A stretch of DNA of 64,000 bases from an uncultured Lachnospiraceae bacterium. GTDB lineage: Bacteria > Bacillota > Clostridia > Lachnospirales > Lachnospiraceae. The translations under genes were made by a program, and so were the position numbers. The stretch covers positions 1 to 64,000 of the forward strand of contig CADAIL010000008.1 of the NCBI GenBank assembly GCA_902788035.1. Reading direction: 5' to 3'. The notes beneath the pieces are model-generated. The model was given only the letters and a program-made list of their open reading frames with translations. It was not told the DNA's origin and did no database searches. Shown piece after piece: positions 5,889-49,840 of the stretch. The first letter of the stretch is position 1. Each line of letters starts with the position of its first letter.

Positions 5889-6518
5889 TTAGATAAGGTT
5901 CCTGATTATGGTCCAGATTTCCTCCCGGCCTTCCTTGGTTTCAGCCGAAAAGGCGATGACCGGAGTGCCGGGCGCTGTCCCGAGCTCCTGGCGGATCGTC
6001 CTTAGAGCTTTCTCTACCTGAGATTTCTTTAGTTTATCTTTTTTTGTCGCGATAATGACCGGCTCCATGGCATTTTCAACGATCCATCTGTGCATGAGCT
6101 TGTCATTTGCTGACGGAGCATGGCGTATATCTACCAGAAGAAATACCGCGCGCAGCATTTTTGATTGTCTGAGATACCGCTCGATCATTTTTCCCCATTT
6201 AGCTTTCACTTCGACACTGGCATTGGCATAGCCGTAGCCCGGGAGATCGACCAGATAGCAATCCGGCGCGAACGGATCCTCAAGCTGCGTGTCCTCAGCC
6301 GGCGTCCCCTCATTCACGCGGTAGTAATTGATTGTCTGCGTTTTGCCCGGCTGGCTCGAAGTCCTCGCAAGGGATTTCCGCTGAATGAGCGTGTTGATGA
6401 GGGAGCTCTTTCCGACATTGGATTTTCCTGCAAATGCCACCTCGATCCGATCCTTCTCCGGCACCGCGCTCGTCACACCGATGACCGTCTCGAGATTCAC
6501 ATTTCTGATTTTTGACAT
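5889..6518 (-). CDS. engB: Ribosome-biogenesis GTPase YsxC/EngB
   Basis: 209 residues. Essential GTPase acting in late assembly of the large ribosomal subunit. G1 is AGKSNVGKSSLIN, the G2 region contains TSSQPGKTQTINYY, G3 is DLPGYGYA, G4 is TKKDK and G5 lies near AFSAETKEG. Length is normal for the family. GAGG lies before the ATG. Its position directly after lon is the classic clpX-lon-ysxC order of Bacillota. Confidence 0.96.
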   Translation of the reverse strand: MSKIRNVNLETVIGVTSAVPEKDRIEVAFAGKSNVGKSSLINTLIQRKSLARTSSQPGKTQTINYYRVNEGTPAEDTQLEDPFAPDCYLVDLPGYGYANASVEVKAKWGKMIERYLRQSKMLRAVFLLVDIRHAPSANDKLMHRWIVENAMEPVIIATKKDKLKKSQVEKALRTIRQELGTAPGTPVIAFSAETKEGREEIWTIIRNLI

Positions 6519-6592
6519 TTATTAACCTCACGGATCAGCGGGCAATGCCCGCTGATGAATTCGATTTCACATGTCTTTGCCCGGATACCGGA

Positions 6593-8896
6593 TCAGGAAA
6601 CAAGGGCTGTACCGAGTACATCCTCCATCGTGGATGCGTAGACGATTTCAAGACCGTCGGTAATCTCAGTCTCCACTTCCTTCATATCATTCCGGTTCTT
6701 CTCCGGCACAAGGACAGTCTTAATTCCGGCCTTCTTGGCGGCCAACAGCTTCTCCTTGAGCCCTCCGATCGGAAGCACACGACCCCGGAGGGTGATCTCA
6801 CCGGTCATCGCCACATCCGCGCGGACTTTGCGCCCTGTGATTGCGGACAGAATGGCTGTTGCCATAGTCACGCCTGCAGATGGCCCATCCTTCGGGACGG
6901 CACCTTCCGGAATATGGATATGAATATCATTGTTGCGGAAGAAGTCTTCCTGAATTCCGTAAGCATCCGCTACTGAGCGAATATAGCTTATACCGGCCTG
7001 AGCTGATTCTTTCATGACGTCACCGATCTGACCGGTGAGCTTGAACTCGCCCTTGCCGGGCATAATATTCACCTCGACCTGGAGCGTTACGCCGCCGACA
7101 GAAGTCCATGCAAGACCTCTGACGATACCGACCTCGTCCTCATCATTGACCGGATTGATACTGTATCGCTCGTACCCCAGGAAGTCCTCAAGATTTTCAG
7201 AAGTTACGGTAATCTTCTTTTGGCCTTCTTCAAGAATCTTCCGGGCAGATTTTCTGCAGATTTCAGCGATCTCCCGTTCAAGAGAGCGCACGCCGGCCTC
7301 GCGCGTATACTTCGCTATAATATCGGCGATTGCTTCGTCCGTGATGACCAGCTGGCGCTTTTTCAATCCGTTCTTCTCAACCTGCTTCGGAATCAGATGA
7401 TCCTTAGCTATGTGAAGCTTCTCATTCTCGGTATAGGAAGTAATCTCAATGACTTCCATCCTGTCAAGAAGCGGCTTCGGAATCGTCTGCAGATCATTGG
7501 CAGTCGCGATAAACAGAACATCCGAAAGGTCCACCGGGATCTCAATGTAGTGATCTTCAAAGTGACTGTTCTGTTCCGAATCCAGGACCTCAAGCAGAGC
7601 AGATGCAGTATCTCCCTTATAGTCGCTGCTGACCTTGTCGATCTCATCCAGCATCATAAGAGGATTTCGCACACCGGCTTTCTTCAGGCCATTTACAATC
7701 CTGCCCGGCATTGCTCCGACATAGGTGCGTCTGTGTCCGCGGATCTCAGCCTCATCTCGCACGCCGCCGAGGGACAGCCTTATATACTTCTTATTCAGAG
7801 CTTCGGCAATAGAGTGTCCGATCGACGTCTTGCCGGTCCCTGGAGGTCCCACAAGGCAGAGGATTGGTCCCGCTCCGTTGCCTGTCAGCTGTCTCACAGC
7901 AAGGAACTCGAGAACTCTATCCTTGACCTTGGTCAGACCGTAATGATCGCGGTCGAGGATCTGCTTCGCGCGGATCAGGTCATGCCTGTCGCGGCTGGCC
8001 TTATCCCAGGGAAGAGCGAGAAGCGTCTCAATGTAGCCTCGGAGAACAGCGCTCTCCGGAGACTGGCCCGGAAGATTCTGGAAGCGTTTGATTTCCTCAT
8101 ACAGCTTATCCTTGACTTCCTTCGGCGCCTTGAGTTTCTTAGTGGCCTCCCTGAAGTTGTCGATATCGCTCAGCGTTGTATCCTCGCCGAGCTCCTCACG
8201 GATCACTTTGAGCTGCTCTCGCAGCAAATATTCCTTCTGGTTCTGGTCGACACGCTCTCTGATTTTTTCCTGCAGTTCCTTGCGGATCGCCATGACTTCG
8301 GTCTCATTGGTGAGAAGAATGCCGAGAGCTTCATACTGCTCCTCCACCGATATGGCTTCGAGGATGATCTGTCTCCTCTCATAGGGCAGCGGCATGTTGA
8401 TAGCGATCTGGCTGAGCACGTACTCAAGATCATCCGACTCCATGATCTGCACTGCGACATCCCGGCTTATATTGTGATCCTGGGTAAAGTATGAAGTAAA
8501 AAGATCTTTTATACTGCGAAGCATGGCCTCCTTCATGGAAGCCGGAAATATGTCCATTGATTCATTCCCGGTGGGCGTGACTCCCGCGAGAATATAATCT
8601 TCGGTCTTTTCAAATGATCCGACGACCGCTCTCTCCATCCCCTCAACGAGAACGCGGACCATATTTCTCGGCAGGCGGTTGACCTGCTTGACAAATGCGA
8701 TCACGCCGACATCCCAGACATCATTGATGTCGGGATCTTCCGTATTCGGGTCGTGCTGCGTGACCAGAAATACCCTCTGGTCCTCCCTCATCGCCCTCTC
8801 AAGGGATGCTCTCGACCTGTCACGGCTCACATCAAAATGAACAATCATTCCCGGCAGGATGCTTGTTCCCCGGAGGGGCACAGCCGGAAGATACAT
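6593..8896 (-). CDS. lon: ATP-dependent protease Lon (first copy)
   Basis: 767 residues. Cytosolic AAA+ serine protease that removes misfolded and regulatory proteins. Order: N-terminal substrate-binding domain ([17 protein letters not shown]), coiled-coil middle, Walker [10 protein letters not shown], Walker B MMLDEIDK, and a C-terminal protease domain with the catalytic Ser in KDGPSAGVT and Lys in [14 protein letters not shown] choose ATG 8896 (GGAGC eight bases upstream) over an upstream in-frame GTG at 8932 that lacks a well-placed site. It follows clpX. Unlike the second Lon at 47.5 kb, no CIRCE or CtsR-like box is visible upstream. Confidence 0.95.
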
Positions 8897-9006
8897 GATA
8901 TCTGCTCCAATATTTTTCAAATGGTAATCCACCTTTTTATTTATTCTCTCGTATCACTAAGCCATCAAAGCCCCTTGCGGGCTTCCCGATCAGACACCGG
9001 TATATA

Positions 9007-28793: not shown

Positions 28794-29519
28794 TCATACA
28801 CCCTGCGGATCAAGCGAGATTTTCTCACGCAGAGCCATATAGAGAGCGGCATCCGTGAGACCTTTATAGGGGTTCACATAGAAAATGCCGACAAGCCCAA
28901 GTGTGATGGCCGAAAGGAACGCCCACCCGAGGAAAGACAGATCAAGAATGAACGCATTCCACTTCTCTCCGTCCATCATACGTCTTGATATTGAAAATAC
29001 TTCACGCCACTCAAGATCCGGGTTCTCGGCAAGGATATACGGTATCATCCTGTATTCATAGCTTTTAATAATACCCGGTATGATTAGGAGCAGCGTCCAG
29101 AGTGCAGTGAATACTGTTCTCAGAAGCATGGTGATAATCCCATTCGCATAATTCATTTTAAAGCCGTAAGTAAGTCTGTCCAGCTCACACGGCGCATACA
29201 GATCTTCCATGAAATATCTTCGAATGCCGATCTCAAGCGGGTTCATCACAAGGATTCGAAGCGCCAGACCCGCGATTCCCGCAAGCAGCGCAACTGCAGC
29301 TATCACCATGGCGATTACGCCGAAATACGGATTATTATTCAATTGTTCAAAAATTTCGATGTCCGTTGTCGATTCAAACTGTTCTGCTCCGCGCGCCGTT
29401 CCCGAAGAAGCCGTAGCCGTGCAGAGCATCAGGAGAAATCCGACCAGAACGGATTTCCAGTAAGACCCTGTGAGGGCATTTTTAGCCATGCCCTTAAGTG
29501 TAGCTATATCCCAGTTCAT
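28794..29519 (-). CDS. DUF975 family membrane protein
   Basis: 241 residues with about four to five hydrophobic segments. The start 'MNWDIATLKGMAKNALTGSYWKSVLVGFLL' and the later 'YEYRMIPYILAENPDLEWREVFSISRRMMDGEKW...DLSFLGW' are the hallmarks of DUF975, an integral membrane family of unknown function common in Clostridia. GGAG precedes the ATG. It lies downstream of the two small peptide genes but is separated from them by their terminator. Confidence 0.88.
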   Translation of the reverse strand: MNWDIATLKGMAKNALTGSYWKSVLVGFLLMLCTATASSGTARGAEQFESTTDIEIFEQLNNNPYFGVIAMVIAAVALLAGIAGLALRILVMNPLEIGIRRYFMEDLYAPCELDRLTYGFKMNYANGIITMLLRTVFTALWTLLLIIPGIIKSYEYRMIPYILAENPDLEWREVFSISRRMMDGEKWNAFILDLSFLGWAFLSAITLGLVGIFYVNPYKGLTDAALYMALREKISLDPQGV

Positions 29520-29534
29520 ATTTTCATCTCCAAT

Positions 29535-29595
29535 AAATCGAGCAGGTAACGAAAATCCCGCCTACTCGTCCTGTCGGGTTTGTGCAACACGATAA
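29535..29595 (+). repeat. R4 terminator-linked block, copy 1
   Basis: Contains CTACTCGTCCTGTCGGGTTTGTGC on the plus strand (core CGGGTTTGTGC), directly followed by a hairpin. Aligned blocks with the same order lie at 32.85 and 54.25 kb. Here the block is opposite in sense to the flanking genes. Confidence 0.6.
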
Positions 29596-29619
29596 AAGGC
29601 ACCACATATGTGTGGTGCC
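29590..29619 (-). terminator. Terminator of the small-peptide operon
   Basis: Perfect stem GGCACCACA / TGTGGTGCC (29598-29606 and 29611-29619) with a 4-base loop. On the minus strand it is followed by TTTTATCG. It lies 25 bases past the stop of the second peptide gene. Confidence 0.8.
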
Positions 29620-29644
29620 TCAATCTTTCTTAATTCAACCGCTA

Positions 29645-29752
29645 TTATGACTGAGCATGTGCGCAGTAATCTTCCATTACGTCCTGATACTTGCCGCCAG
29701 CGGTCTCTTCGACATTCATTTCAAGAATTGTCGGAACTTCCCACTTCTCCAA
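29645..29752 (-). CDS. Small RiPP-like precursor peptide 1 (35 aa, TTG start)
   Basis: 35 residues, beginning at TTG with AGGAGG eight bases upstream. The first 20 residues are a leader-like block, MEKWEVPTILEMNVEETAGG, which aligns with peptide 2 at almost every position (KWE-x-P, NV-x-ETAGG). The leader ends in a double Gly. The short core KYQDVMEDYCAHAQS has one Cys and ends in QS, like peptide 2. Such KWE-x-P / GG peptides resemble precursors of ribosomally made, modified peptides, but no radical SAM, LanM, cyclodehydratase or peptidase gene is adjacent. The alternative is a small signalling or metal-binding peptide. The TTG start hides it from ATG-only gene calling. Confidence 0.75.
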   Translation of the reverse strand: MEKWEVPTILEMNVEETAGGKYQDVMEDYCAHAQS

Positions 29753-29884
29753 GGCTTAATCCTCCTTTAAATTACAAATTATCCGCACAAAATCGATGAC
29801 TTCATCAAATAGACATTGAAATGCAATCACCACAATTTAGTGCAGAAATTGCATAGGAGACTTACTCCCCCTCGAATTGTCTGA

Positions 29885-30004
29885 TTATGACTGGCCACCC
29901 TTGCAAGGACAACCGCAGTAGCACTCGATCGGCATATCGGACTGGCCGCCTGCTGTCTCCTGAACGTTGAGTTCCTTGACTACCGGTGCTTCCCATTTCA
30001 TCAT
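29885..30004 (-). CDS. Small RiPP-like precursor peptide 2 (39 aa, Cys-rich core)
   Basis: 39 residues, ATG at 30004 with AGGGAGG eight bases upstream. The leader block KWEAPVVKELNVQETAGG matches peptide 1; the core ends ECYCGCPCKGGQS, with four Cys in an alternating C-x-C-x-C-x-C pattern. The two cores align at E-x-Y-C and at the final QS. First gene after a strong promoter; peptide 1 follows about 130 bases later and a terminator closes the unit. Possible roles: a modified peptide (thioether or thiazole), a metal-binding peptide, or a signal. Homology to a named family is not established here. Confidence 0.8.
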   Translation of the reverse strand: MMKWEAPVVKELNVQETAGGQSDMPIECYCGCPCKGGQS

Positions 30005-30041
30005 TGCAAATACCTCCCTATTTTTTTGTATTGCTTCTCAA

Positions 30042-30070
30042 AGTATACTTCTATACTTCAAAAAAGTCAA
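30042..30070 (-). promoter_or_regulatory. Promoter and dyad operator of the small-peptide operon
   Basis: On the minus strand TTGACT (30070-30065), exactly 17 bp, TATACT (30047-30042), giving a leader of about 30 nt. A perfect dyad AGTATA-CTTC-TATACT (30042-30057) overlaps the -10 box and is a plausible operator. The rest of the 333-bp gap up to the EamA gene (30071-30337) is AT-rich with no gene visible. Confidence 0.8.
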
Positions 30071-30337
30071 TCGACCCTTCAATTTTTACATAAATATTAC
30101 TAAATGCAACTCCCCAGAAAGATTTACAGCCCAAAATAAGGCTTTTTCTCTCCGCATACAATATATATACTCCTTAAATCCCAAAAAGTAAAGTTTTCTC
30201 AATAAAAAATGACGTTTTTTTCCTTATGTTTTAATTTTTGTACATATTATAACGTTACTCATGTCCGATGCCCGGCAAAACTCATACCCTATCCGGAAAA
30301 TCCGCAGTGGAGTTCCGGTCAGCGCAGTCCGACGAAA

Positions 30338-31222
30338 TTATAACTGAGAAATCACGATTGCCGCAAACATGAGCACACACCCAAGGATCTCCCTCGCAGA
30401 CATAGCCTCGTGCAGGACGACCCACCCCGCAAGGGCTGCGAACACACTCTCGAAACTCATCGCGATCGATGCGACGGCAGGGTCAAGCCCGTCCTGGGCT
30501 ACAATCTGAAGAGTATACCCCACCGCGCTGCTCATAAATCCCGCATAGAGAATCGTCGGCAGCGCTGCCATAACACCTTCCGCATTGAACGGCTCAAAGA
30601 CCAGCATACATATACCTGCAAATATTCCTTCAAACAGGAACTCCAGAGCTGCAAGCTTTACCGGATCCGTGTACTTTACAAAATAGTTGACCGACAGAAT
30701 CTGCAGACTGAAAAGAAAAGCGCACAACAGCATCCAGCTGTCCCCTGCCGACAGTGTAAAGCTTTCCCCCATGCACAGAAGATACAGACCTATGACCGCC
30801 AGCATGACGCATCCCCACACCTTCCTGTTCACGCTCCGGTGCAAAAAAAATGACAGAACCGGAACGAGCACTACATAGAGAGCAGTGATAAAACCGGCCT
30901 TGGCTGTCGTTGTAAAGCTGATGCCGATCTGCTGTGACGCGCTGGCCGTAAACAGGAAAAAGCCGCAGACCGCACCGCCAAGTATGAGCATCTTTGACTG
31001 TCCGGCAGTCTTCTTAACCCGGTCTCCCATTCTTATAAGCACCTGTTCCCGCACCGCAATAACAGGGAGCAGGGCAAAAAAAGCGATCCACGTCCTTGCA
31101 GTGAGGAAGGTGAAAGGCCCTACAAAGCCGGCCCCAATGCTCTGTGCTGCAAATGCGCAGCCCCAGATGAGGGCTGTTACAATGAGGACCAGTGTGCATA
31201 TTATTTCCCGCCTTTTATTCAT
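30338..31222 (-). CDS. EamA/DMT-superfamily transporter
   Basis: 294 residues with ten hydrophobic helices in two EamA repeats ('LIWGCAFAAQSIG' in the first; 'LPTILYAGFMSSAVGYTLQIVAQ' and 'FESVFAALAGWVVLHEAMSAREILGCVLM' in the second). These carriers export metabolites such as amino acids or purines; the substrate is unknown. I use ATG 31222 (MNKRREIICT), although its ribosome binding site is weak; ATG 31252 is also possible. It lies upstream of the peptide genes on the same strand but the peptides have their own promoter. Confidence 0.87.
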   Translation of the reverse strand: MNKRREIICTLVLIVTALIWGCAFAAQSIGAGFVGPFTFLTARTWIAFFALLPVIAVREQVLIRMGDRVKKTAGQSKMLILGGAVCGFFLFTASASQQIGISFTTTAKAGFITALYVVLVPVLSFFLHRSVNRKVWGCVMLAVIGLYLLCMGESFTLSAGDSWMLLCAFLFSLQILSVNYFVKYTDPVKLAALEFLFEGIFAGICMLVFEPFNAEGVMAALPTILYAGFMSSAVGYTLQIVAQDGLDPAVASIAMSFESVFAALAGWVVLHEAMSAREILGCVLMFAAIVISQL

Positions 31223-31331
31223 ATCTGCCGTCCGTTCCAGAAAAATATCCATCTCGCATCAAATTTCTTAAATTAAAATTTAAGAGCGCTTCGCTTAGTC
31301 CGATAAGACATAATAGCACAACCTTACATGG

Positions 31332-47542: not shown

Positions 47543-49840
47543 TCAACTGACATTCTCAATGACGTCATTCAGAATTCCAAGAGCCTGAAGCACCTCTTCC
47601 ACCGTGCTGACAGGTGTAATCTCAAGCACGAACTTGACCTCCTCGGCCACATCTCTGAGATCTTCAACATTGTCTTTAGGAATAAAGACATGCGTTGCCC
47701 CTGCCCTCTGTGCCGCCATGAGCTTCTCCGGCAGTCCGCCGATCGGTTTCACGTCGCCCTGCAGGGATACCTCACCCGTCATAGCAACCTGCGGGCTTAC
47801 CGGCACACCTGTGACCAGCGATGAAAGCGCTGTTGTCAGAGTAATGCCTGCAGACGGTCCGTCCTTCGGCGTCGCTCCGTCCGGTACGTGAATATGAAGA
47901 TCACTCTCCTTGAAGAGTTCAGTCTTCTCAGGGAATATTGACTTCACAAGGCTCACCGCGATTTGAGCTGACTCCTTCATGACATCTCCCAGCTGACCGG
48001 TGACAACAGTCTTACCGCTTCCTCTGGTGAACAATGTCTCAATGAACAGAACCTCGCCTCCCACCTGGGTCCAGGCGAGACCTGTCACAACGCCCGGTCT
48101 GGCCTCATTTTTCACAAGACCGTGGCGGATCGGGTGCATATCCAGATAATCCCTCAGATTATCTGTGTCGATCACAAGCCCCTCATCTTTCCCGCGGACA
48201 ATATCGACCGCTGCCATTCTGCACAGAGTGTCAAGTCTCTTCTTTAATCCTCGCACACCTGCTTCCCTTGTATAATCGCTAATGATTTCATTCAGGGCAT
48301 CGTCGGTGACAGAAAGGCTCTCCTCGCGGATTCCGACCGCGCGCATTGCCTTGGGCAGAAGATGTCTTCTCGCGATCTCATATTTCTCAGTCGGAGTATA
48401 CCCCTGGAACTGAATGACTTCCATACGGTCGAGAAGCGGCGCAGGAATCGTATCGAGGGTGTTGGCCGTGCAGATAAAGAGAACATTCGAAAGGTCATAC
48501 GGTACATTCATATAATGATCCGTGAACGTGTTGTTCTGCTCCGGGTCAAGAACCTCGAGAAGAGCACTGGCCGGGTCTCCGTTATAGGAAACCCCGAGCT
48601 TGTCAATTTCATCGAGCACCATGACCGGGTTGGATACACCGCTCTTGGCTATGCCGTCCATGATACGCCCCGGCATAGCTCCGATGTACGTTCTTCTGTG
48701 ACCGCGGATATCAGCCTCATCGCGGGCACCGCCGAGGCTGACTCTGACATACTTGCGGCCAAGTGCATTTGCAATACCCTGACCTATAGACGTCTTGCCG
48801 CTGCCGGGAGCTCCGACAAAGCACAGGATCGAACCCGACTGCTGCCTCTTAAGGTTCATGACAGCAATCTGCTGAAGTATTCTTGACTTGACTTTTTGCA
48901 GACCGTAGTGAGTCTCGTTGAGTATGGCTTCCGCCTCGTCAAGGTCAATATTTACGGCTTTCTCCTTCACCCATGAAAGGCTGAGGAGGAAATCGAGATA
49001 ATCATAGAGCATTCCGGATTCAGGGCCCGCCTGACCTTCCTGCTTCAGGCGATTCAGGACCTTCTCCGCTTCCTTGCGCGCAGTCTCATTCATTCCGGAT
49101 TCCCGGATCCTGATCTCGAACTTGCGCAGCTCGGTCACTTCCTCGGGATGCATCTCATCCAGCTCTTTCTGCAGATATTCCATCTGCTTCTTTATTGCGG
49201 CCTCGCGGTAGATCTTTTTGTGTTCTTCCTCCTGAGCATTCTCCGCCTCGTTGTTGATCTTGTAAGCTTCAAAGTTCTCATAGATCATGTTCTCCATGAG
49301 TTCCTGGCGCGCTGCCCTGCTGTCTTCTGCGAGAACAGCATAGCGCTCCTTGCTCGAGTTCATGAGCCATGGACCCATCGCGGAGACGATTTCTCCGACC
49401 GAGTGCCACTGAGCAATAAATGCCCTCGATATCTGAACATTCTCAAAATTCTCTGCGTACTTGAACAGTTGACGCTTGAGCTTCTTCAGTCTCTCCTCCG
49501 CCACATCAGGGTCGAGGTCGTCGATATCCTTTCTCTTAGTTATATCAAGATCTATACTGTGGTCATTATAAATCGTGATCTCATTTAGATTTACACGACT
49601 GCCCGTGCGAATCACTATGTATCCGTTCTGATTAACTTCGGAGATAGAACCCTGCACACCGATCGGATAAAAGCTGTCTTCGGTAAGCTCCTCACGCGGC
49701 AGGTTCTCGCGGCACAGGATCACAGTGACCTTTTCACCCTGATTCGGCACTTTGCCTGTCATCTTCTTATAATAATCTGTCTGCAATACAAATGTGCTCT
49801 CGGGCACAAGAATGCTGTTGTAAACCGGTACTACTGCCAT
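47543..49840 (-). CDS. ATP-dependent protease Lon (second, heat-shock-regulated copy)
   Basis: 765 residues with complete Lon architecture: N-domain (MAVVPVYNSILVPESTFVLQ), Walker A GAPGSGKTS, Walker B MVLDEIDK, protease Ser in KDGPSAGIT and Lys in GLPEKLMAAQRAG. It differs clearly from the first Lon, especially in the N-domain that selects substrates, so it probably degrades a different set. It is under a textbook CIRCE element and a consensus promoter. GGAGG precedes the ATG. Confidence 0.94.
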   Translation of the reverse strand: MAVVPVYNSILVPESTFVLQTDYYKKMTGKVPNQGEKVTVILCRENLPREELTEDSFYPIGVQGSISEVNQNGYIVIRTGSRVNLNEITIYNDHSIDLDITKRKDIDDLDPDVAEERLKKLKRQLFKYAENFENVQISRAFIAQWHSVGEIVSAMGPWLMNSSKERYAVLAEDSRAARQELMENMIYENFEAYKINNEAENAQEEEHKKIYREAAIKKQMEYLQKELDEMHPEEVTELRKFEIRIRESGMNETARKEAEKVLNRLKQEGQAGPESGMLYDYLDFLLSLSWVKEKAVNIDLDEAEAILNETHYGLQKVKSRILQQIAVMNLKRQQSGSILCFVGAPGSGKTSIGQGIANALGRKYVRVSLGGARDEADIRGHRRTYIGAMPGRIMDGIAKSGVSNPVMVLDEIDKLGVSYNGDPASALLEVLDPEQNNTFTDHYMNVPYDLSNVLFICTANTLDTIPAPLLDRMEVIQFQGYTPTEKYEIARRHLLPKAMRAVGIREESLSVTDDALNEIISDYTREAGVRGLKKRLDTLCRMAAVDIVRGKDEGLVIDTDNLRDYLDMHPIRHGLVKNEARPGVVTGLAWTQVGGEVLFIETLFTRGSGKTVVTGQLGDVMKESAQIAVSLVKSIFPEKTELFKESDLHIHVPDGATPKDGPSAGITLTTALSSLVTGVPVSPQVAMTGEVSLQGDVKPIGGLPEKLMAAQRAGATHVFIPKDNVEDLRDVAEEVKFVLEITPVSTVEEVLQALGILNDVIENVS

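Follow-up and report, generated by a model that had tools for sequence, protein, structure and literature searches.

The core of a lasso peptide requires an N-terminal residue together with an Asp or Glu seven to nine residues further on. Paeninodin-like lasso clusters are already known, both in Lachnospiraceae (PMC7533575) and in polysaccharide loci (PMC13381572). Lasso leaders of Bacillota carry a WxxP motif (PMC13381572) and a Thr lies near the cleavage site, at position -2 in most lasso peptides (PMC10368454) and, by assumption, at -3 in those of rumen Lachnospiraceae (PMC7533575). According to a review (PMC9266682), the lasso HprK-like kinase PadeK acts on the C-terminal Ser, and hexoses carried by the phosphate have been linked to PsmN, a nucleotidyltransferase homologue. 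In paeninodin RREs a Gly replaces the Asn found in Tyr-binding RREs, and Trp is preferred (Popov et al. 2026, PMC13381572); PbaB1, the RRE of paeninodin, was crystallised together with its WxxP leader (PDB 9x90).

We analysed a stretch of 64,000 nucleotides (the window) from an uncultured Lachnospiraceae bacterium. An earlier note, made from the sequence alone, had drawn attention to two tiny paralogous genes of 39 and 35 codons with a shared leader, and had suggested that they are RiPP precursors modified in trans. That suggestion is supported, and the class can now be named: judged on sequence, the products of the pair are very probably lasso precursors of the paeninodin-like (class II, phosphorylated) type, with maturation in trans by a cluster on another contig, C11, of the same genome. 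The features of the locus are as follows.

30004..29885, minus strand: precursor gene 1, ATG start, 39 aa, MMKWEAPVVKELNVQETAGGQSDMPIECYCGCPCKGGQS; leader M1-A18, core from G19
29888..29950, minus strand: predicted core of gene 1, GGQSDMPIECYCGCPCKGGQS, or from the second Gly; C-terminal Ser
29924-29926, minus strand: codon of the predicted ring Glu of gene 1 (Glu27), invariant in 12 genus precursors
29752..29645, minus strand: precursor gene 2, TTG start, 35 aa, MEKWEVPTILEMNVEETAGGKYQDVMEDYCAHAQS; leader M1-A18, core from G19
29648..29698, minus strand: predicted core of gene 2, GGKYQDVMEDYCAHAQS, or from the second Gly; C-terminal Ser
29672-29674, minus strand: codon of the predicted ring Glu of gene 2, from the genus precursor alignment
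30013-30018, minus strand: ribosome binding site (RBS) of gene 1, GGGAGG, 8 nt from the ATG, kept in RGIG5770
29761-29765, minus strand: RBS of gene 2, GGAGG, 8 nt from the TTG, kept in three congeners
30070-30042, minus strand: promoter TTGACT-17-TATACT, hexamers and spacing kept in three congeners
29597-29620, minus strand: terminator hairpin 3' of gene 2, 10 pairs, architecture kept in congeners
30338-31252: EamA transporter gene, flanking the precursor pair
28794-29519, minus strand: DUF975 membrane protein gene, directly downstream of the precursor pair

The DUF975 gene stays near the pair in congeners, lying about 3 kb away in G330. Elsewhere in the window there are two Lon-type protease genes, at 6593-8932 and 47543-49840.

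The two genes are 51% identical to each other and are separated by 132 bp. That they are genuine paralogous genes is confirmed by their full synteny in the closest congener, the sheep ileum MAG Lachnospiraceae RGIG5770 (G299/G312), and by purifying selection on their coding sequence, both against RGIG5770 (dN 0.053, dS 0.25; dN/dS ~0.2) and against the more distant congener G330 (dN 0.21, dS ~1.7; dN/dS ~0.12). RGIG5770 conserves both genes, their RBSs, promoter and terminator, as well as the TTG start of gene 2; the strong RBSs do share one spacing, as had been remarked. The consensus promoter is a more mixed case, in that its score alone does not exceed chance (three sites versus 2.4 in shuffles), but its hexamers and spacing are conserved as listed above. 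The proposed terminator holds up well: the folded region has an energy of -18.6 kcal/mol (z = -5.0) and, in the more distant congeners, the stem differs in sequence while its architecture is the same. Our scan calls this hairpin on the plus strand, and it can be read in both directions. The cores had been described as divergent, with a common QS ending; this is true between the paralogues, but each core is conserved from species to species.

Scans of the two peptides alone against Pfam and NCBIfam gave almost no matches. Gene 1 matches the NCBIfam family lasso_PadeA_fam (NF033524) at 14.1 bits, below the cut-off of 27, and it was this sub-threshold match that raised the lasso hypothesis; gene 2 has no match to the same model. 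The model must be considered insensitive in this family, since only nine of 18 precursors in the family sample match it at E <= 1. The leaders contain KWEAP and KWEVP respectively, so that the WxxP RRE-binding motif is present in both. Across the genus, W4, P7, V14, E16, T17, A18, G19 and E27 are invariant in all 12 precursors, and 11 of the 12, including both window peptides, have a C-terminal Ser. The shared QS ending can be understood because this Ser is the known lasso kinase site. Thr17 is invariant in two precursor alignments (A2 and A4). Each peptide has a Gly followed by an acid at a suitable distance, namely Glu9, or Glu8 if the second Gly is residue 1. More broadly, an acidic residue is found at T+10 or T+11 in 17/18 family cores, against 5.3 expected, and none of 20000 shuffles reached as high a count.

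Two cleavage sites may be considered. Cleavage at ETA|GG would place the Thr at -2 and give a nine-membered ring, Gly1-Glu9, while cleavage at ETAG|G would place it at -3 and give an eight-membered ring, Gly1-Glu8. Gene 1 also has a C-x-C-G-C-x-C motif, retained across four species; in gene 2 a single Cys is retained. What is conserved speaks for a Gly-Glu lactam and a phosphorylated Ser, and does not imply Cys modification; the Cys residues are possibly an extra beyond it, forming tail disulfides or binding metal.

Searches of the own genome revealed a lasso B2 protease and a PqqD/RRE protein adjacent to one another on contig C11.

L015:5384-12771 (contig C11): tightly packed maturation operon
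L015:10075-10995 (contig C11): HprK-like kinase gene, the candidate kinase for the C-terminal Ser

The operon comprises genes for an ABC transporter, the HprK-like kinase, PqqD, B2, an NTP_transf_5 protein, a VanZ-like protein and an asparagine-synthetase-like cyclase, so that B1 (RRE), B2 protease and cyclase are all encoded in the genome. Upstream of the maturation genes lie LicD-like, polymerase-like and glycosyltransferase-like genes, in the context of an exopolysaccharide operon. Both PqqD (103.6 bits against the lasso_PqqD_Bac cut-off of 80 in NCBIfam) and B2 (69.4 bits against 33 for lasso_biosyn_B2) score above threshold, and B2 retains its Cys, His and Asp. The best NCBIfam match of the cyclase is to the lasso cyclase, at 119.6 bits far under the cut-off of 525; it retains the SGGLDS pyrophosphate loop and is without the glutaminase Cys at position 2. 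A precursor gene inside the cluster is usual, not essential, for lasso systems, and here the leader profile detects none on the whole 74.7 kb of C11. Run against the entire genome, the profile finds only the two window genes. A weak third protein match, on C4 (E 0.97), was dropped as it is without the leader motif. Measured to the nearest contig end, the distance is ~29.6 kb for the precursors and ~14.7 kb for the cluster, and the two must therefore be at least ~44 kb apart.

The nearest solved structure to the C11 PqqD is that of PbaB1 (PDB 9x90, E 1.3e-18). The C11 protein and the PqqDs of congeners carry the paeninodin-type Gly, and in the C11 protein the Trp pocket also retains its Gln and Phe; these residues are linked to WxxP leaders (PMC13381572). 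A second PqqD, on contig C3 of the genome, is without this Gly. It is found in a locus (L016, G000:C3:140000-155000; positions 5918-8990, minus strand) that also encodes an HprK-like P-loop protein and an NTP_transf_5 protein and adjoins a gene for a 1606-aa surface-protein-like product. No lasso B2 or cyclase was seen at the C3 locus, where an ORF of 84 aa with FVTPVIL near its N-terminus is a possible precursor.

The same arrangement recurs in congeners. In RGIG5770 the cluster is present at 79-96% identity; the 21.9 kb fetched around it contain no precursor, and the two precursor genes are on another contig. G311 and G330 are more distant, their core enzymes (exporter, kinase, RRE, B2, nucleotidyltransferase and cyclase) being 42-58% identical to those of our genome. 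Each keeps the pair next to EamA and has the cluster on another contig, no precursor being found around either cluster; in G330 the contig coordinates put the precursor site and the cluster at least ~136 kb apart. All of these are draft genomes, so that physical distances are lower bounds. Among 42 genomes of the genus, precursors were found in five, B2 in six and both in four (p = 6e-4, the congeners not being phylogenetically independent). The fifth genome with precursors, G304, is a fragmented assembly in which B2 was not detected and the cyclase shares a contig with two of the four precursors. No precursor was detected in G309 (64% complete), which has B2, nor in G319 (89% complete), which has the whole maturation cluster (L132, G319:C116).

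The earlier note had proposed a profile search for the leader across Lachnospiraceae, and would have been refuted by a lack of homologues; these do exist. A profile built from only the two window peptides matches in seven of 299 family genomes, five of which are among the nine with a lasso B2 over the cut-off (Fisher p = 3e-6, own genome left out). One of the remaining two, G188, has a tail-only match that was not counted as a precursor. In the fetched loci of relatives, precursors with the same leader lie near B2 or cyclase genes. Radical SAM and the other enzymes that had been suggested for tabulation are not the relevant ones. A wider profile of 18 sequences retrieves nine genomes at E < 1e-4, eight of them with B2, although the resulting p = 6e-14 is partly circular in that some training sequences came from B2 loci. 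In the ninth, G285, the precursor is beside a cyclase. Partial matches in G209, G325 and G283 were not counted as precursors.

Four genomes (G096, G115, G066 and G047; L059, L060, L062 and L064) each contain two to five lasso-type precursors. Their tails are very different from one another and sometimes of low complexity, with Ser as the last residue in some and Lys or Asn in others, despite the presence of HprK-like kinase genes. Dispersed precursors now seem less likely to be common in the family, since the extra precursors in G203, G115:C87 and G285 adjoin a cyclase of their own. Only those on G096:C29 and G115:C16 have no cyclase nearby. The former (L065:8021-8224) lies on a contig of 293 kb; the 16 kb fetched contain neither cyclase nor B2, and the lasso enzymes of that genome are on another contig. 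It is possibly a second, independent case of an orphan precursor.

These data bear on other explanations of the pair. Linear polyphosphorylated peptides (LPP) suggest a route in which an RRE, an HprK-like kinase and a protease would yield a linear phosphopeptide with no lactam. RRE, kinase and NTP transferase are common to LPP and paeninodin systems, which are frequently found together in one genome (PMC13381572), and our genome has, at C3, a PqqD, P-loop and NTP_transf_5 locus without B2 or cyclase. However, the LPP leader is YxxPxVLxHQxIxFETxxS (PMC13381572), whereas the window leaders have WxxP and none of the rest, including HQxIxFET. Moreover, the C3 RRE is without the paeninodin-type pocket and a candidate precursor of its own lies beside it, while the Glu of the window peptides is invariant and B2 co-occurs with the precursors. 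We therefore consider a linear product improbable.

Conservation of the C-x-C-G-C-x-C motif of gene 1 in four species, and of one Cys in gene 2, could instead indicate another RiPP class, its Cys residues modified by, for example, a radical SAM enzyme or a YcaO enzyme from another locus. This is very unlikely given that this leader and those related to it occur with lasso enzymes, and that relatives beside such enzymes often have no Cys, yet retain the acid and, in many cases, the C-terminal Ser. Short Cys-rich proteins can bind metal, and the pair might accordingly be small unmodified cytosolic proteins, whose likeness to lasso leaders is fortuitous or relictual. Against this stand the specific conservation of a leader whose relatives lie beside lasso enzymes, the co-occurrence statistics, and purifying selection on leader and core alike, so that an unmodified protein is very unlikely as well.

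Maturation of the pair as lasso peptides by the C11 enzymes can be envisaged as follows. The two genes would be transcribed as a single small operon, and the lasso PqqD/RRE protein (B1) would recognise each leader by its WxxP. Phosphorylation of the C-terminal Ser would fall to the HprK-like kinase, and the NTP_transf_5 protein may further decorate the phosphate. The transglutaminase-like B2 protease would cleave after ETA (or ETAG), and the asparagine-synthetase-like cyclase would link the Gly thus exposed at the N-terminus with the conserved Glu, yielding a threaded lariat for export as a lasso peptide by the ABC transporter. Rather more speculatively, and with considerable doubt, we suggest that this is a stable split pathway, in which one precursor-less cluster in a polysaccharide operon acts in trans on two conserved precursors that differ from each other, contain Cys and are under a promoter of their own. 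The product might even have two components, with phosphorylated (perhaps glycosylated) C-termini linking them to the cell envelope or exopolysaccharide.

In the open-access literature we found no description of a lasso cluster that is conserved without a precursor gene while a conserved precursor pair lies at a distance. Lasso mining usually seeks precursors beside the enzymes, and such searches would miss these peptides. The pair has remained apart from the cluster while the cluster proteins diverged to around 50% identity, so that the neighbourhood rule probably misses real substrates and lasso clusters apparently lacking a precursor may nevertheless be active. The separation also makes it testable whether one RRE and cyclase set accepts substrates in trans in its native host. 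Equally, with precursors and cluster separately deletable or inducible, the role of paeninodin-like peptides in polysaccharide loci becomes open to experiment.

Compared with described systems, LPP (Popov et al. 2026, PMC13381572) resemble ours in their discrete RRE, HprK-like kinase, NTP transferase and conserved leader with variable core, but differ in a YxxP leader of longer consensus, an SpI-type leader peptidase and the lack of a cyclase. Another described system is that of the rumen Lachnospiraceae lasso clusters of Sabino et al. 2020 (PMC7533575), which share the leader type MKxWNxPxxxELxINETA-G, have kinases and polysaccharide genes in the cluster and were reported commonly to have precursors with a C-terminal Ser. 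There, in contrast, the search for precursors was confined to the neighbourhood of the enzymes, and the listed ring acids are Asp, at a distance of 8-9 residues from predicted Gly1. Our system also resembles the paeninodin-like lasso peptides (paeninodin PadeA/K/B1/B2/C/D; pseudomycoidin PsmK/PsmN). The peptides have in common WxxP, a Thr near the cleavage site, an acid at the ring position and a C-terminal Ser; the enzymes have in common a discrete RRE B1 with B2 and cyclase, an HprK-like kinase, NTP_transf_5, an ABC exporter and a polysaccharide-locus context. Unlike in those systems, the predicted ring acid here is Glu instead of the usual Asp, the cores contain Cys (four in gene 1) and the precursors occupy an operon of their own at a distant, syntenically conserved site.
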